From NCBI GenBank assembly GCA_013407085.1, contig JACCGJ010020294.1, forward strand, positions 1-64,000: a stretch of 64,000 nucleotides of DNA, written 5' to 3'. Origin of the DNA: Atriophallophorus winterbourni (Eukaryota > Platyhelminthes > Trematoda > Plagiorchiida > Microphallidae). Of this stretch, positions 7,806 to 62,052 are shown one piece after another (the stretch's first letter is position 1; each line of letters opens with the position of its first letter). The position numbers were made by a program, and so were the translations under genes. Below the pieces are notes generated by a model. The model was given only the letters and a program-made list of their open reading frames with translations. It had not been told where the DNA came from and ran no database searches.

Positions 7806-9364
7806 TGGTCGACATTTTAAAGTACATGAGGTAAAACCGTACTGTCCCTAGAGTAGAGAGGCGAGAATTGCTCTATCAATCTTTCTATCTGTTGAGTTTT
7901 TTCCACAATCGGGTCACCAGATACATTGGAAACATTTGGTTTTTAATTATCATTGTGAGGTTGGTTGTAGGAGTAATGTCGCTAGAGTATGTTATAGCTA
8001 ATGTGATTGGCAAACGAATGTGATTGAACAATTCGAGATTAAACGCGTCCATTTGATTTTTGATAATCGCAAGTTCAGAAACGCTACTCGTAACTCCGAT
8101 GCGTTGATATGCACTATTATAAATTCGATGAGACTCAAGGATGGTTGAACTAGAAAAGCAACAAGCTTGTCGCAGTCCACTTTGGTGATGAGTAGCTCAC
8201 ATCTACATAGCGTCTGTTCAGAGCATGTTTCCTAACCACGTTACTCATGCTACATTTGGACACATTCAAGCTACGCAGTCCATAATATCTGACACTAAGC
8301 TCCTTCGTTTTAGCGTAAAGGTATATTTGAAGATAAAAATCTCTGATCTGTATGGCCGCCCGTCTAGGACACAAACGCCGTTCTTTTGAAATCAGATTTA
8401 GCTATTATACGCAATCTATTATGTTTCAAACATTTAGATCCTGCTGACCGTTATTGATAAATTTTTCAACTTCTACAAATAACCGATGAGATAAATAAAA
8501 GGCATTTATAATTAGATTTTTCCAAATTGAAAATATCACAGATCCATATAATTTGGAAGACGCGTTTCTGGTGTCAGGGTTCCATGAAGAATTGTTCTTG
8601 TAATATCGACCTTAGCGATGTTTTCATTGTTTAACTCAGACCGAGTAATGTTTAATCATATGTCATCTCTAGCTCTAATCACTCAATCGTACGGACTTAC
8701 CGACCTTGTCTGTATTAGGTCAAGACAACGATTTTAAACACGTGATTTCGAAACGTAGGCATTCTTTACGCGGCTGAGCTAGAAAAGTTGTCTACCGAAC
8801 ATTCCAGTGAAGCATGGAGGGTTCGTTCACTTGGTCAGTTCAAATAAATAATAATTTCCATCAAGTGCATATTTTATGGTGTATTGAAATATTCGTATCG
8901 AGTCTCAGTGAAATTAATTTATCTTCACTTTGAACAAAAATGACGTTTAAACCGAATAATTGTGAAACATAATCATCTGCATACATTTCAACCACATGCA
9001 CTCACGACCATTTCCTGCTGTTTGCAATTGATTATGAAGTCAAATCACTGATGGAAGATTTTTAATTCCAGATCAACCCAATAGAGCAGGGTTTTCCAAA
9101 GAAGGAATCCTCGCACCCCTTGGGGCTGCGAGACAGCATTCCATGGGTTGCTTGTTCAGCTTTTTGTCTTGCATTGAGTGTTTTCATTTTCTGTGGATTG
9201 GTGTTTAATTGTTCAACGTATTCTGTGCGCCTGTGTCTTTAATAAACAGTTCTTCTTGTTACCTTTGTTCTAAAAACCTTTCTCTATATATTTCAGATTA
9301 TGATTTTGAAATTAGTTATTAACCCGAAAATTATATCACAGGGAAGACAATGGAATAATGATAT
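7806..9364. other. Unassigned sequence
   Basis: 1.5 kb without recognisable genes. At 9086-9140 a stretch ('gggttttccaaag', then 'cgcaccccttggggctgcgag') resembles the termini of hAT-type elements, but no partner end or target duplication was located. Confidence 0.4.
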
Positions 9365-9397
9365 TCAAGGTAATGTATTGTGGCGCTCAAATTCCCA

Positions 9398-9452
9398 TTC
9401 CTTACGCATCACTACCGGTTTCTGGCTGTTTGCCCTCATCAGGTGGAGACAG
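9398..9452 (-). ncRNA. Hammerhead-ribozyme-like motif (degenerate)
   Basis: On the minus strand CUGAUGA (plus 9436-9442) is followed by stem II GGC/GCC with an AAACA loop, GAAA (plus 9419-9422), and ACC/GGU plus A as the NUH cleavage triplet (GUA, plus 9413-9415). Stem I can pair CAC before the core with GUG after the cleavage point. The G10.1-C11.1 pair is replaced by G-A, so activity is doubtful. It sits in the same short element as the motifs at 16.6, 16.9, 17.2, 21.4 and 24.9 kb. Confidence 0.6.
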
Positions 9453-9499
9453 TAAGATCAGGTTCAGTAATTCAAGGTTTTTAATGGTCTAAAAAGCAA

Positions 9500-16170: not shown

Positions 16171-16544
16171 GGAAATAAAAAAACACTATGGAATAGGAAA
16201 AGTACTTCAGATTTATTATCTGGCATCAAGGAAATGAATAAATAAATAAATTCTTAATTAATTTTTTCGCACATGACGACGTGAAAAACAAAAATAAGAA
16301 ACATGCATGGTTGATTAATGGGGCAAAAACAAACAAATACAGCAAAATGGAAACACAATGTAGACTATGGACTCTGTTTGCTGGAAAGGTTGGACGCGGT
16401 TGATGGTGGTCGGTGGGTGACAAAATTAAAAGCGGCTGGCTTGAAAATTCCAATTCAATGGTCAAATCAACAATGAACCAAATTTTTCAGAACATAGCGG
16501 TATATATCGCCATATTTATAGTTCCACAAACATAGGCAACAGCA
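16171..16544. other. Unassigned sequence
   Basis: AT-rich, no recognised coding. Confidence 0.4.
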
Positions 16545-16563
16545 AATAAGTATAAGAATTAAA

Positions 16564-16665
16564 TATTCATTTGCATGCTTTTCCGTCATTCACACCTCAC
16601 GACCGGTTTCGTGCTGTTTGCACTCATCAGGTAGGGACATTAAGATCAGCATCCGCATGCGCTTG
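16564..16665 (-). mobile_element. 102-bp hammerhead SINE-like element with 19-bp target duplication
   Basis: A 19-bp perfect direct repeat ('aataagtataagaattaaa') occurs at 16545-16563 and 16666-16684. It brackets a 102-bp insert that carries a full hammerhead core on the minus strand. The length and perfection of the flanking repeats point to target-primed retroposition. Related inserts are at 21356-21467 and about 24890-24990. Confidence 0.8.
16588..16640 (-). ncRNA. Hammerhead ribozyme motif, best-conserved copy
   Basis: Minus-strand order: stem I strand, CUGAUGA (plus 16624-16630), perfect 4-bp stem II GUGC/GCAC closing an AAACA loop (plus 16611-16623), GAAA (plus 16607-16610), stem III ACC/GGU, and the cleavage triplet GUC (plus 16601-16603). 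All invariant core bases are present. Stem III is a 3+3 palindrome (ACCGGU) with no loop, so folding within one molecule looks impossible. Two molecules, or two tandem units, could pair there. Self-cleavage is inferred, not shown. Confidence 0.75.
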
Positions 16666-16686
16666 AATAAGTATAAGAATTAAACA

Positions 16687-16891
16687 AGGTTATACTTGTA
16701 TGCAAACTGTTATATAGGGTTCGTACAACGAACCACGATGTTCAGACACAGAATCACAAAGTGATTCTTGGTCAAAGCACTCAAGGCGCTTATGGATGAC
16801 CAAAGTAATGTGTTGCTCACGTCCCCTGAACATCGTGGTTCGTTGTACGAACCCTATATAACAGTTGGCATACAAGTATAACCTTGTTTAC
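16687..16891. repeat. Long inverted repeat (59-nt arms)
   Basis: The arm at 16687-16745 ('aggttatacttgtatgc' ... 'cgatgttca') is the reverse complement of the arm at about 16832-16890, with a single mismatch seen. It results from head-to-head joining of two units of the hammerhead array. A transcript would form a strong hairpin with a loop of about 85 nt. Confidence 0.85.
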
Positions 16892-16929
16892 CACCTTTAT
16901 CCACTGTTGCAAAGCTCACTAACCTGATC

Positions 16930-16985
16930 TACTGTCTCCACCTGACGACGACAAACAGCCAGGAACCGGTAGTGGTGTGTAAGGG
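16930..16985 (+). ncRNA. Hammerhead-like motif with broken core
   Basis: CUGACGA at 16942-16948 and stem III ACC/GGU with GUA (16969-16971) are kept. The invariant GAAA has become GGAA at 16962-16965, and stem II is weakened. It is predicted to be inactive. Confidence 0.6.
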
Positions 16986-17171
16986 ATGGGGATGTGAGCA
17001 ACACATTACTTTGGTCATCCACAAGCGCCTTGAGTGCTTTGACCAAGAATCACTTTGTGATTCTGTGTCTGAACATCGTGGTTCGTTGTACGAACCCTAT
17101 ATAACAGTTGGCATACAAGCATAACCTTGATTACCTTTAATCCACTGTTTCAAGGCTCACTGAACCTGATC

Positions 17172-17228
17172 TTACTGTCTCCACCTGACGACGGCAAACA
17201 GCCAGAAACCGGTAGTGGTGTGTAAGGG
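17172..17228 (+). ncRNA. Hammerhead ribozyme motif in tandem unit
   Basis: CUGACGA lies at 17185-17191, stem II is GGC/GCC around AAACA, GAAA is at 17205-17208, stem III is ACC/GGU, and the cleavage triplet GUA is at 17212-17214. Stem I pairs CCAC before the core with GUGG after the cleavage point, four consecutive pairs. The stem II closing pair is imperfect (C opposite A). Confidence 0.65.
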
Positions 17229-17479
17229 ATGAGGATGTGAGCAACACACTACTTTGGTCAAGTATAAGAATTGTTATATAGTTCGATCGATCGATAGATA
17301 TTTGTCATTCCTTCGTGGCGTGGTATAAATGAGTATCTCGGCTATTGAAGAAGGCATGCCTAATTCGTCAGGCTACATTTCGGACGTATATCATAGATTA
17401 AGCAACTACGCAAATCGTTGACGTTTTCCGAATAAATAGCTCTTCGAACGAAATAGCTCATGCGAAAGAAATAAGTCTT

Positions 17480-17700
17480 AATATCTATCAATACATTGTG
17501 GTGCTCACATCCCCTGTGTAAAGGATGGGGATGTGATGTAGTGGTGTGTAAGGGATGAAGATGTGAGTACCACAAAACATTGGTCTTTCATAAGCGCCTC
17601 GAGCACTTGGCCAGGAATCACTATGTGATTCTATATTTGAACATCGTGGTTCTTTGTAAAATAAACCTACTCCACAGTGGCATACAGGTATACCTATATC
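17480..17700 (+). repeat. Diverged outlying unit of the hammerhead repeat
   Basis: The sequence repeats the unit landmarks 'gatgaagatgtgagtaccac', 'aagcgcctcgagcactt', 'gaatcactatgtgattcta' and 'gaacatcgtggttctttgta', with more changes. No complete hammerhead core is left, although the 'gtagtggtgtgtaaggga' 3' flank is present at 17537-17554. Confidence 0.6.
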
Positions 17701-18499
17701 TTAAAATGTATATTAGTGAAATCTTGATTAGGATAGCAAATTAGCTAGACTAAACAAAGTAAATCGGTCTTACAAGCAGACACATGGATGGGCTGACACG
17801 TCAAAACCGCACGAAAACACGTGATAGACGGACGGCAAGTGTGGTCGATAGAGTAATTAAATCTTGCGGTCAACAAAGACGTGATATGATCGGTTCGTGA
17901 ACTCCATCAAAATGAACGCGCGTGCATTATCAACGAAAATGCACGGTTTTCTTAATTACGAGAGTGGCATATTTTAGTGAATTTTAAATAACACTTGCAA
18001 ATATATCAATGCATTGCCTTTCACATTCCGGAATTAAAACCGAATATAAGTATTGGAAAATTCTTCATCAAATTGTGAAAGAAATATTCATTCATGCAGC
18101 CTTCAAACGTTGGGTAGATGAGAAAAATTATCTCTTTGAAATCAGAGTTTGATGAGGAGGTTATGGAACGAAACGCTCATAAAAGACCAATCGCCCACAA
18201 TGGCAAATATTTCGTATGAACAATTCCAAAACCTGCTCCCTCAGTACGCGTGGTGCTAACATAATCTGCCTGAAAATATGAAAATTTCTCACGTAGTAGA
18301 TGCAGTCGTTTTCTAGCATAACTAATAACCAGCGTAGGTGGCGTCGTAGAAATTAGCTATAAGTTATTTGGAGACCAGGTATAGAAAGCACTTCGACAAT
18401 CTATAGCTTTTCTATCTACGAAATCTTCCAGATGTCGTTCGTGCCCTGATGGTTGCTTAAGCGAGATGAGTAAGGCCAGCAGAAAGATTAAGGTCAAAT
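17701..18499. other. Unassigned sequence
   Basis: No recognisable coding or repeat in 800 bp. Confidence 0.45.
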
Positions 18500-21131: not shown

Positions 21132-21461
21132 TTGGCACGAATATACAATCTCGAATTATTCATTATATTTTTGATCTATTCTGAGACAGCTGATTGGGGG
21201 AAACTGGGATATTCGTGGAAGTTTGCCCTATGCGCAAGTGCTGTCGACCAGTTTGTCGACTATCCAGATTGCGCTAAGTTCAAGCACTATGAACAGAAAG
21301 ACTGCTCTGATTATTTACACCAGTGTAATGTATGGCGTGCAATTAAAAAGCTGATGACGATCTACATACATTTCCATCACACACCCATACCAAACGACCA
21401 GTATCGTGCTGTTTGCACACATCATTTAGGGACAGTAAGATCAGGATCCGCAGGCGCTTAA
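21132..21461 (+). other. Unrecognised Cys-rich open frame entered by a hammerhead SINE
   Basis: The frame contains a stretch with five cysteines over about 45 residues ('CASAVDQFVDYPDCAKF' ... 'CSDYLHQCNVWRAIKKL') before it runs into a hammerhead-bearing insert at 21356. The spacing (C-x10-C-x6-C) does not fit a CHCH domain exactly, and I cannot name a family. A second open stretch (21476-21676) continues just after the insert in another frame. It may be a disrupted host exon or simply chance. Confidence 0.25.
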
Positions 21462-21467
21462 AATATC
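21356..21467 (-). mobile_element. Hammerhead SINE-like element, 8-bp target duplication
   Basis: 'aagctgat' occurs at 21348-21355 and 21468-21475, bounding a 112-bp insert. On the minus strand the insert matches the 16564-16665 element: 'gcggatcctgatcttac', then the AAACAGCAC stem II, then the GGTC triplet. The core is mutated (AUGAUGU for CUGAUGA and GAUA for GAAA), so the ribozyme is dead. Confidence 0.65.
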
Positions 21468-23780: not shown

Positions 23781-24889
23781 TGAGGGTTTTTGTTCACACT
23801 ATTTTACTTTTGTACACCTGACTAAATGTGACGAATTAACCGCACTTAGGAATGTCTCGAATCATGCCAGTAACTATACGGTTAACGGCGACAACGTTGT
23901 ATTATACGCTACCAACTTTGAACACCTTAGACGGTACGTAGTCCCACGGACTCACATCCTTTCCAACGAACCAAGTATTCTTCTGACCAACTTGCAAATT
24001 TCACCAATTTTTGACGGGTCTATGGTCTAGGACAAGTTTCGCGAGCGGTAGGACTATCGCATGGGGGACGCGAAAATTCGATTGCAGGTTTTAAACATGG
24101 ATTGAAACTGAGGTACTCAGCAAAACAGCACTGGAACAGCAGCATTAGCTATTCGTTCACTAAATCGGACGCCCTAGGGTGTTCGGATAAATACAATACA
24201 ACTTGGGAATAAAGCCGCCAAATCGCACATAGCCAAAGCAAAACAAAGGAGATTGCTGTTTGGGAAACACGTTTTTAGTTTCACAACTAATCTCAGGCGT
24301 GTGCTGGTGACTAACAGTTGTAAAAACGCATAACTAATTTCTGTATTCACTCCATTTTCGCTCGAATATTGATTTTTCCAATAGCTTACAAGAATGATAA
24401 TCATGGCAATAGACAATTGCTGAAACCCCATCCTAATGAATAGGCTGTTCCGAATTTACCAAGGTTAAGATATATATCTAAAACCTTTAGCAGAGTACAG
24501 CAAGTAGAGGTTTGTCCACCCTGAATCTTGTAACATTCATAATGTGTCTTGATAAAAAGAACCCGCTTTGAAAGTCTTGGACAGGCATTTGCAATACGCT
24601 TCCAAACCGACGTAGTCTTTGTACGTTGAGCTGCTTCTTTCTACTAAATTATCACAACCAAAAATTTCAGTACGAATTGTATGGCAGTGCATGCGATGGA
24701 ACCAGGTGACATACATGGCGTTACGTAAACAGATGTTGTCAATTACTTGAAGTCGTGGGATGTGCAGTCTGCGTAAAGACAAACGTTTGTATTCTTACTG
24801 CAAAAAGCCTGCCGCTTTGGAGACTACTATTGCTCAACATGGGTTGGTGGTACCAAATTTATCCAAGTGACAAACCCTGTTTACTATTT
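23781..24889. other. Unassigned sequence
   Basis: No recognised coding or repeat in 1.1 kb. Confidence 0.4.
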
Positions 24890-24992
24890 TTTCAAGGCAA
24901 GTAGATCCTGATCGTACAGTTCTTATCTGATGAGCGCAAATACCACGAAACCGTTCGTGGGATGTGATGGAATGCAAATGAGGATCTTTGTT
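24890..24992 (+). mobile_element. Hammerhead SINE-like element
   Basis: The plus strand carries the same order as the other copies ('gatcctgatcgtacag', core, 'gtgatggaatgcaaatgagg'). Imperfect flanking repeats 'tgtttacta' (24879-24887) and 'tgtttatta' (24988-24996) may be the target duplication. Confidence 0.6.
24915..24972 (+). ncRNA. Hammerhead-like motif, core intact, stem II weak
   Basis: CUGAUGA lies at 24927-24933, GAAA at 24947-24950, and the triplet UUC at 24954-24956. Stem I can pair UCUUAU before the core with GUGGGA after the cleavage point. These are six pairs, including wobbles, that differ in sequence from the other copies but keep pairing. Stem II (GCGC opposite CCAC) has mismatches. 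Confidence 0.55.
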
Positions 24993-29604: not shown

Positions 29605-30072
29605 TGCTGTACGGCTAACATCGTGCTAAATTGATTGGCCAACGGTAGTGAGCTGCATGCTGAAACACGCTGGAGTCTCACTACCATTTCTATTTTCCCT
29701 CATTTCTGTCTAGGCCTGGGCAACCTGACAGTATCTTAGCCCACGTGCAGTCTCTGACTGTGCGGCACTTTGCCTGGATCAGGCTTGTGCTTTCATACAC
29801 TACCATTTCTATTCCCCCCTCATATCTGTCTAGGCCTGGGCAACCTGACAGTAATATCGCCCACGTGCAGTCTCTGACTGTGCGGCACTTTGCCTGGACC
29901 AGGCTTGTGCTTTCATACATACAAATCACAAGCCTGGGTTAGGCAAAGTGTTATACAGTCACAAACTGCGCATGATCTAAGATACCGCCAGGTTACTAAT
30001 GGCTAGACAGATTTAAGGGAAAGTGGAGGATACTCCAGCTTATTTCCGTATGCAACTCGATACCGTTGGTGA
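29605..30072. repeat. 190-bp repeat cluster: 120-bp tandem plus inverted copy
   Basis: The plus copy begins 'gtacggctaacatcgtgct' at 29609. Its 3' 120 bp is tandemly repeated ('ctaccatttctatt' starts at 29681 and again at 29801). A minus copy (29930-30072) follows directly, so the tails meet near 29925. The cluster abuts the CAT tail of the next RTE. Confidence 0.75.
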
Positions 30073-43805: not shown

Positions 43806-43807
43806 TA

Positions 43808-43999
43808 CCGTAAATACCCGCGTATATGACGCACTTTTTTCTTCATAAGTTGCCCTAAAAACCCAGGTGCGTCTTATACATGGATACTATTATTATAAAA
43901 ATTACCGTAAATACCCGCGTATAGGACGCACTTTTTTTCTTCATGAGTTGCCCTAAAAACCCAGGTGCGTCTTATCCATGGATACTTTTATTATAAAAA
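43808..43999. repeat. Tandemly duplicated left terminus of the Tigger element
   Basis: Two copies, starting at 43806 and 43903, share about 97 bp from the terminal repeat through 'ggtgcgtcttat' to 'attataaaaat'. They differ at a few bases (for example 'tatatgac' against 'tataggac'). The inner copy matches the right end better. Confidence 0.88.
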
Positions 44000-44053
44000 T
44001 TAAGCATTTATCATAATATCAAAAATTTATTTTATAAACCGGTACAATATTTA

Positions 44054-61603: not shown

Positions 61604-62052
61604 TGACATCAAACGTTTACACGGAATATGTTGTCTACAACGATGAAATGCAAAAATGGATTCCAAATCTGGATGTCTCATTGAGGTTCGCTCCTACAAC
61701 ATTTTCTATGATAGAAATGAGGCAGCTAAGATCAAAACTGAGAGTTTCAACTACACGAGGATAAACCTCATGAGTATTCGAATTTCAAAAGGACGAAGCA
61801 AATTGCCAGTTTGGGTCACTCAGGGACGAATGTGCATACTGGGTGGTGCACTCTCTCGTCAGCAGTTACAAGATACATGCGCAATTGAAACATTTTTAAA
61901 ACTTAAAGATTTTCAAGGATTCAATGGCGCATGGCCCCTGCGCAAGGATGACACGCAAAATAGTAAAGCGTTCCATATTTTTGGTTGCAAGTTTGTTAAA
62001 GCCGGGGCGGTTTTGGAAATAAGCTCACAATTCCAAACATGCTTTATTGGCT
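61604..62052 (+). pseudogene. Coding-like tract of unknown family
   Basis: An ATG at 61604 starts 'MTSNVYTEYVVYNDEMQKWI', and a long overlapping frame (61656-62069) reads on for 137 codons. Switching frame near 61665 gives a continuous reading with 'GCLIEVRSYNIFYDRNEAA'. The start faintly recalls an EVH1-type domain (small N-terminal strand with K-W), but too few residues match to assign it. It ends where the RTE 5' region begins ('atagcctctgacaaccaag', 62058). It may be a host-gene fragment, a captured sequence or chance. Confidence 0.25.

Follow-up and report, generated by a model that had tools for sequence, protein, structure and literature searches.

Metazoan non-LTR retrozymes, as described by Cervera and de la Pena (2020; PMC7229834), are short and non-coding, their units (150-450 bp, low in GC) being repeated in tandem and equipped with a type I hammerhead ribozyme; they occur as dimers to long multimers in many copies, and have target duplications of more than 4 bp. 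In the published descriptions helix III is stable in most invertebrate hammerheads of this kind and very short in Penelope-like elements and the satellites of amphibians, and short helix III motifs that are self-complementary have been reported to work as dimers (PMC7229834, PMC7761336). Dimer action is also reported for the hammerhead satellites of newt and axolotl, where helix III consists of one pair and a palindromic tetraloop and the unit is 330-350 bp long (PMC7229834). Penelope-like elements and their pseudo-LTRs (pLTRs) show direct and inverted repeats, short target duplications and 5' truncation (PMC3846280, PMC11167929, PMC8969392), and a minimal hammerhead has been defined for them (PMC7761336). 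The Sm-alpha and Sj-alpha of schistosomes are small hammerhead retroposons too (PMC6155905, PMC8490949). How animal retrozymes return into the genome is unsettled; Penelope-type machinery has been proposed on the grounds of shared traits and co-occurrence (PMC7229834).

In the window analysed here, the 64,000 nucleotides at positions 1 to 64,000 of Atriophallophorus winterbourni contig JACCGJ010020294.1 (assembly GCA_013407085.1), a block of hammerhead sequence, block B, is quite probably one insertion of a non-coding, non-autonomous family with 243-bp units and a minimal type I hammerhead, moved as in the cycle proposed below. The unit length fits the retrozyme range, and the type I hammerhead, the low GC content, the series from dimers to long multimers and the many copies are shared with metazoan retrozymes as described in PMC7229834. 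Direct and inverted repeats, short duplications and 5' truncation are shared with Penelope-like elements and pLTRs, and the minimal hammerhead, as defined for the former (PMC7761336), is present in the unit; unlike Penelope-like elements, the unit is non-coding with a regular tandem period, and no reverse transcriptase or endonuclease ORF was seen in units or, among the 40 longest ORFs read by eye, beside them. Helix III, unlike that described for most invertebrate retrozymes (PMC7229834), is one pair with a CCGG palindrome. This does not exclude membership of the retrozymes, because amphibian retrozymes share the short helix. The initial annotation had presented tandem units, a type I hammerhead and a very short helix III together as the known layout of metazoan retrozymes; the first two agree with the published description, and the third is, in the sources cited above, a trait of Penelope-like elements and amphibians and mostly not of invertebrates. 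By description, the family resembles the newt and axolotl satellites, its unit being 243 bp compared with their 330-350 bp, and the schistosome retroposons. Two of its features, a pair of preferred 3' ends and head-to-head inserts, go unmentioned for metazoan retrozymes in the sections of PMC7229834 on which we draw; together with short duplications they constitute testable marks of the enzyme involved.

A target apparently used twice

Block B (16681-17260) is made up of two arms joined 5' to 5', an inverted part-unit (146 bp) and a direct stretch of 434 bp. With phase 1 of the unit set at window position 16972, the first base 3' of the predicted cleavage site, the inverted arm (16681-16826, minus strand) covers phases ~16 to 162 and has its 3' end at T1, one of two preferred positions defined below; the direct arm (16827-17260, plus strand) contains 1.8 units, from phase 98 to phase 46, and has its 3' end at T2. 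The two direct units and the inverted part-unit of the initial annotation were both confirmed: at a spacing of 243 bp, 16826-16892 and 17069-17135 agree at 97%, and 16930-17017 and 17173-17260 at 95%, while 16681-16826 is 97% complementary to 16988-17133. The block is also bounded, as had been claimed, by two perfectly matching copies of the 13-bp repeat aagtataagaatt (16668-16680 and 17261-17273); mismatched flank pairs from the family share at most 8 bp (n = 182). The left copy lies within the right copy of the repeat flanking a neighboring element, A. The right flank of block B mildly resembles the unit, with a score that 2.1% of random 60-mers reach; the insertion target may have been an older member of this family, or the likeness may be due to chance.

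Element A (16564-16665, minus strand) is a short A-type hammerhead copy of 102 bp, covering phases ~182 to 34 of the unit. It is flanked by the 19-bp repeat aataagtataagaattaaa (left copy, 16545-16563; right copy, 16666-16684), which had been annotated as a perfect target duplication. As sequence this repeat stands; the actual duplication probably measures 16 bp, the rest being an AAA native to A, because the last three bases (TTT in the sense of A) are native in relatives, which continue, in sense, as GAATA-TTTTGTTTCA. These three extra bases are native to A on one side of it and native to B on the other. An order of events with B inserted before A, in which the AAA of the 19-bp repeat was taken as belonging to B, is no longer preferred over the reverse, since the AAA of the other copy is native to A in relatives.

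A search with element A gave 1217 candidates, and the 40 places scored, the window's own place included, were 95-100% identical to it. In 15 of the 17 relatives fetched with their flanks, native unit sequence extends beyond the piece on one side or both, which weakens the view of the 102-bp piece as a discrete mini-element; the one clear short copy of the A-type piece is L079, which has a 13-bp flank repeat, and another of the 17 (L063) belongs to a second contig that covers the region of the window. On the minus strand, element A, the middle repeat and the inverted arm of B follow one another without loss of register (261 nt for 262 phases), and the middle repeat is similar to native A-type sequence. 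An interpretation of A and the inverted arm as a single native unit is disfavored, as the identity of 16-19 bp with the left flank demands a duplication. As a copy of a related A-type unit, element A is truncated at the 5' end; it lies at the same target as block B, and the repeated use of this target is real at the level of sequence.

Hammerhead cores

The hammerhead of element A (16601-16630, minus strand; CTGATGA-GTGC-AAACA-GCAC-GAAA-CCGG-TC) has an intact core with predicted cleavage after GTC. Hammerhead cores 243 bp apart had been assigned to both direct units of block B, and this holds for the second, B2 (17185-17214, plus strand; CTGACGA-CGGC-AAACA-GCCA-GAAA-CCGG-TA), where the core is intact and cleavage is predicted after GTA; in the first, B1 (16942-16971, plus strand), the core is mutated, with GGAA instead of GAAA. 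One of the two cores in the window's block B is accordingly intact. Helix II of B2 has a C.A at its base, and helix III is one A-U pair closing CCGG, so that the six bases ACCGGU are self-complementary.

At Rfam gathering scores no hammerhead was found within the window. With relaxed settings over 16400-17800, Hammerhead_1 was matched only at 16595-16636 (minus strand), that is, in element A, with 25.8 bits against a gathering score of 34, and the B-type units of copy L016 gave no match even at E = 10. A search of the assembly for the strict core pattern CTGANGA-N8..16-GAAACCGGTH, which pools all hammerhead kinds with CCGG, revealed 18,854 matches (9357 forward and 9497 reverse), compared with six (4 + 2) for the reversed pattern; the family, taken with all these hammerhead kinds, is abundant. 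A search for exact cores in viral contigs found none. A LINE fragment gave no clear affinity either: its named hits were mainly in genomes of birds, at about 50% identity, and metagenome contigs reached 62%.

In the fetched loci 125 of 136 hammerheads recognised by a fuzzy pattern have an intact core, as do 117 of 193 distinct hammerhead sequences, a set in which decayed copies weigh more and which comes from loci picked for matching and is not a random sample. The pairs of helices I and II are mostly preserved across these 193 sequences, and a compensatory exchange in helix II, G-C to T-A (4 sequences), distinguishes A-type from B-type hammerheads. At the base of helix II, C.A occurs in 121 of the 193 and T.T in 32 (153 together), the former in the consensus and the latter in a subfamily; a U U mismatch has been reported at this place in the axolotl HHR_Amex2 (PMC7229834). 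Both oppositions should make for a weaker ribozyme, and their frequency raises the question of how weak a hammerhead can be and still serve.

Copies, ends and head-to-head inserts in the assembly

The assembly of the window comprises 537 Mb in 15,840 contigs. With the 243-bp unit as query, 40 of 2417 candidates were scored, giving 88 matches; the full-length matches among these 40 places are 89-97% identical to the query, and many lie in tandem arrays. Tandem copies of this period elsewhere, which the initial annotation had predicted, are therefore present, in arrays that range in length from 1.6 units to 24 or more; the fetched loci also contain copies shorter than one unit. A consensus of 243 bp was derived from 161 units with a mean identity to it of 97.6%, in a sample that leans young, the arrays having been chosen as best matches; because these arrays are young, the ends of inserts are readable. 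The consensus has a GC content of 0.449 and stops in all six frames, the longest open stretch being 65 codons, and carries TATATAA at phases ~127-133. The core varies less than the rest of the unit (1.2% vs. 2.5%, permutation p 0.02), with the qualification that the selection anchor overlaps the core. The predicted circular fold of the unit has -61.7 kcal/mol with 56% of bases paired and z -1.1 relative to shuffles for the plus strand; z is -2.3 for the minus strand.

The 3' ends of arrays are concentrated at two positions. Among 32 ends (34 minus two same-locus duplicates, from the set before later-fetched loci, with the window's inverted arm cut by hand at the 13-bp repeat and the old copy E omitted), 18 fall at phases 30-48 (T2) and 10 at phases 152-168 (T1), and the remaining four at 6, 131, 206 and 216. 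Two 19-nt windows hold 28 of the 32, compared with at most 16 of 32 in the best two windows for uniform random phases (500 trials). The 27 listed 5' ends, which include the merged A piece, copy E and 12 head-to-head arms, are spread over phases 17 to 242. Plain random truncation predicts no cluster among them, and 13 of the 27 crowd at phases 123-170, around and just past the TATATAA motif; transcription starting there might be the cause.

Flank repeats of 7-14 bp were found at 10 of 14 inserts with both ends covered, which is compatible in length with the duplications of more than 4 bp reported for metazoan retrozymes (PMC7229834), and no clear duplication was seen at the other four. L019, which is interrupted by N, and the second L027 copy, whose right flank is just 10 bases long, were excluded from this test. 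Repeats of at least 7 bp occurred in 3% of 182 mismatched pairs; repeats of at least 10 bp were present at 7 of the 14 inserts and in 0 of the 182 pairs, none of which exceeded 8 bp. Target duplications, combined with preferred 3' ends and a spread of 5' ends, form the signature of target-primed reverse transcription, known from non-LTR elements. Given the arrays, the two preferred 3' phases, the spread 5' ends, the flank repeats and the excess of pattern matches, the family is, on the evidence of its sequence, most likely a non-coding element spread by this process and with the build of a metazoan retrozyme.

The inverted junction, which the initial annotation had considered unusual, proved to be neither unique nor foreign to known elements: it recurs in seven inserts (the window block, L005, L031, L037, L039, L042 and L062), and a head-to-head inverted repeat is a described trait of Penelope-like elements (PMC3846280, PMC8969392). 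In L005 the arms are separated by 76 bp of simple repeat; in L031 one arm is just 43 bp long and the other runs off the contig; L062 was selected among the pattern matches for the divergent orientation of its two hammerheads. All four head-to-head inserts with both outer ends known have flank repeats, of 13 bp in the window and in L005, 7 bp in L037 and 10 bp in L062 (CTCACATATG). Their 3' phases pair T1 with T2 in the window block (162/46), L005 (153/46) and L037 (158/31), three inserts of four, which are too few for a rule, and this pairing is broken in L062 (~92/45). If the arms chose independently, about 35% of inserts would be expected to show it, given the 18 and 10 of 32 single ends. 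In a further locus, L056, two arms separated by 140 bp have their ends at 34 and ~8-30; no flank repeat was found by eye, and the arms are taken as separate old copies.

Several other hammerheads were noticed in the assembly. The first places listed by the strict pattern include a third hammerhead kind, whose helix II is GCGG-CCGC and of which two members are spaced by 308 bp, and a pair of A-type hammerheads 232 bp apart. In L060 (G000:C6:28300-31300), at ~439-1051, the third kind (GCGG-CAATAA-CCGC) forms a tandem pair, 98% alike and with predicted cleavage after GTC, directly upstream of a frame reading like a LINE reverse transcriptase.

Proposed cycle and rival explanations

The best reading of these observations is a retrozyme that would be moved by Penelope-type machinery. 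In the cycle that we propose, tandem copies would be transcribed into multimeric RNA, which the hammerhead would cut at unit length, probably as a dimer through the ACCGGU of helix III. A reverse transcriptase supplied in trans would use nicked genomic DNA as its primer and begin mostly at T1 or T2, a step suggested by the preferred 3' ends, the spread 5' ends and the target duplications. By reading around a circle, or along a multimer, it could generate inserts of 1.6 to 24 or more units, and where both nicked strands prime, the two cDNAs would meet 5' to 5' and leave the head-to-head structure. The enzyme would most likely be of the Penelope type: for PAc, a Penelope enzyme studied in vitro, cutting and extension of both strands have been described, with synthesis beginning at two neighboring internal positions of its RNA (PMC11167929), and rotifer Penelope inserts contain head-to-head inverted pLTRs, with duplications of 8-10 bp in the examples given (PMC3846280). 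Weighing against this reading are the C.A and T.T oppositions in helix II, the failure of Rfam to match B-type units, the z values of the circular fold, the four inserts with no clear duplication, the four 3' ends outside T1 and T2, the crowding of 5' ends, and the ORF and contig results given below. A more specific version, in which the enzyme can prime both cut strands, mostly with different RNA starts, T1 on one and T2 on the other, so that head-to-head inserts record a two-ended, two-site reverse transcription, is offered tentatively and seems to us rather unlikely; it is weakened by L062, which has no T1-T2 pair. If true, it would provide direct genomic evidence that Penelope-type machinery, hitherto proposed from co-occurrence, moves retrozymes.

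Since the layout of block B (one inverted and two direct copies, a short duplication, a minimal hammerhead and a TATA-like motif) is shared with Penelope-like elements (PMC3846280, PMC7761336), the units could instead be pLTRs of such an element, the block being an inverted pLTR with two direct pLTRs and the coding part missing. Fragments of Penelope type with GIY-YIG do exist in the assembly: 17 places pass E 0.001 for the Penelope-type endonuclease among 150 scored of 1370 candidates. The three of them that were fetched (L057, L058 and L059, at G000:C3643, C3257 and C13518) are a composite of two GIY-YIG fragments head to head, which, as read by eye, directly adjoins polymerase sequence like that of Gypsy LTR-retrotransposons. 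Near these three loci no hammerhead unit was found, and across the 345 kb of fetched DNA (overlaps counted) the genome's own form of the GIY-YIG motif occurred only in them. Moreover, no coding part was seen in the array loci examined, no Penelope ORF was recognised beside arrays among the 40 longest ORFs, read by eye, and in the arrays as many as 24 units follow one another head to tail at a constant period of 243 bp. We regard the pLTR origin as unlikely. Still less likely would be ordinary satellite DNA, maintained by unequal crossing-over and gene conversion, with the hammerhead as a relic. Long arrays of nearly identical units and the weak base pair of the ribozyme would suit it, but dispersed short inserts with target duplications and two preferred 3' phases are not expected from crossing-over, and the core is less variable than the rest of the unit, subject to the overlap with the selection anchor mentioned above.

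The head-to-head block could also be an assembly artefact of a collapsed repeat, a suspicion that arises from another contig, C12631, which contains A and the inverted arm and then departs from the unit at phase ~3. There, L063 (G000:C12631:59500-60600) is 99.75% identical to the window along 406 bases that span A and the inverted arm, after which an open frame reading like a LINE reverse transcriptase stands in place of the direct arm; the two contigs may represent different haplotypes, or one of them may be misjoined. The 13-bp repeat encloses the whole of block B, however, and six other head-to-head inserts were found, three of which (L005, L037 and L062) have flank repeats of their own, and we consider a collapsed repeat improbable.

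Four further copies were found in the window. Copy E (17497-17705) is older and decayed; a short inverted segment belongs to it on the 5' side, and most of the ribozyme is missing. Copy D (9368-9470, minus strand) is a short single hammerhead part with the flank repeat ACCTTGAAT, whose 9 bp are reached by 1.7% of random window pairs, and copy C (21355-21466, minus strand), short and decayed, has the flank repeat ATCAGCTT, whose 8 bp are reached by 3.6% of such pairs. Copy F (24885-24990, plus strand) is short and without a significant flank repeat. A decayed hammerhead-like piece with no recognisable boundaries lies close to copy D (8978-9025, minus strand). Two two-copy tandem repeats unrelated to the hammerhead unit were observed at 29679-29919 (120 bp, 92%) and 43806-44002 (98 bp, 95%), and a U6 snRNA match at 61885-61982 (plus strand) exceeds its gathering score with 51.2 bits.
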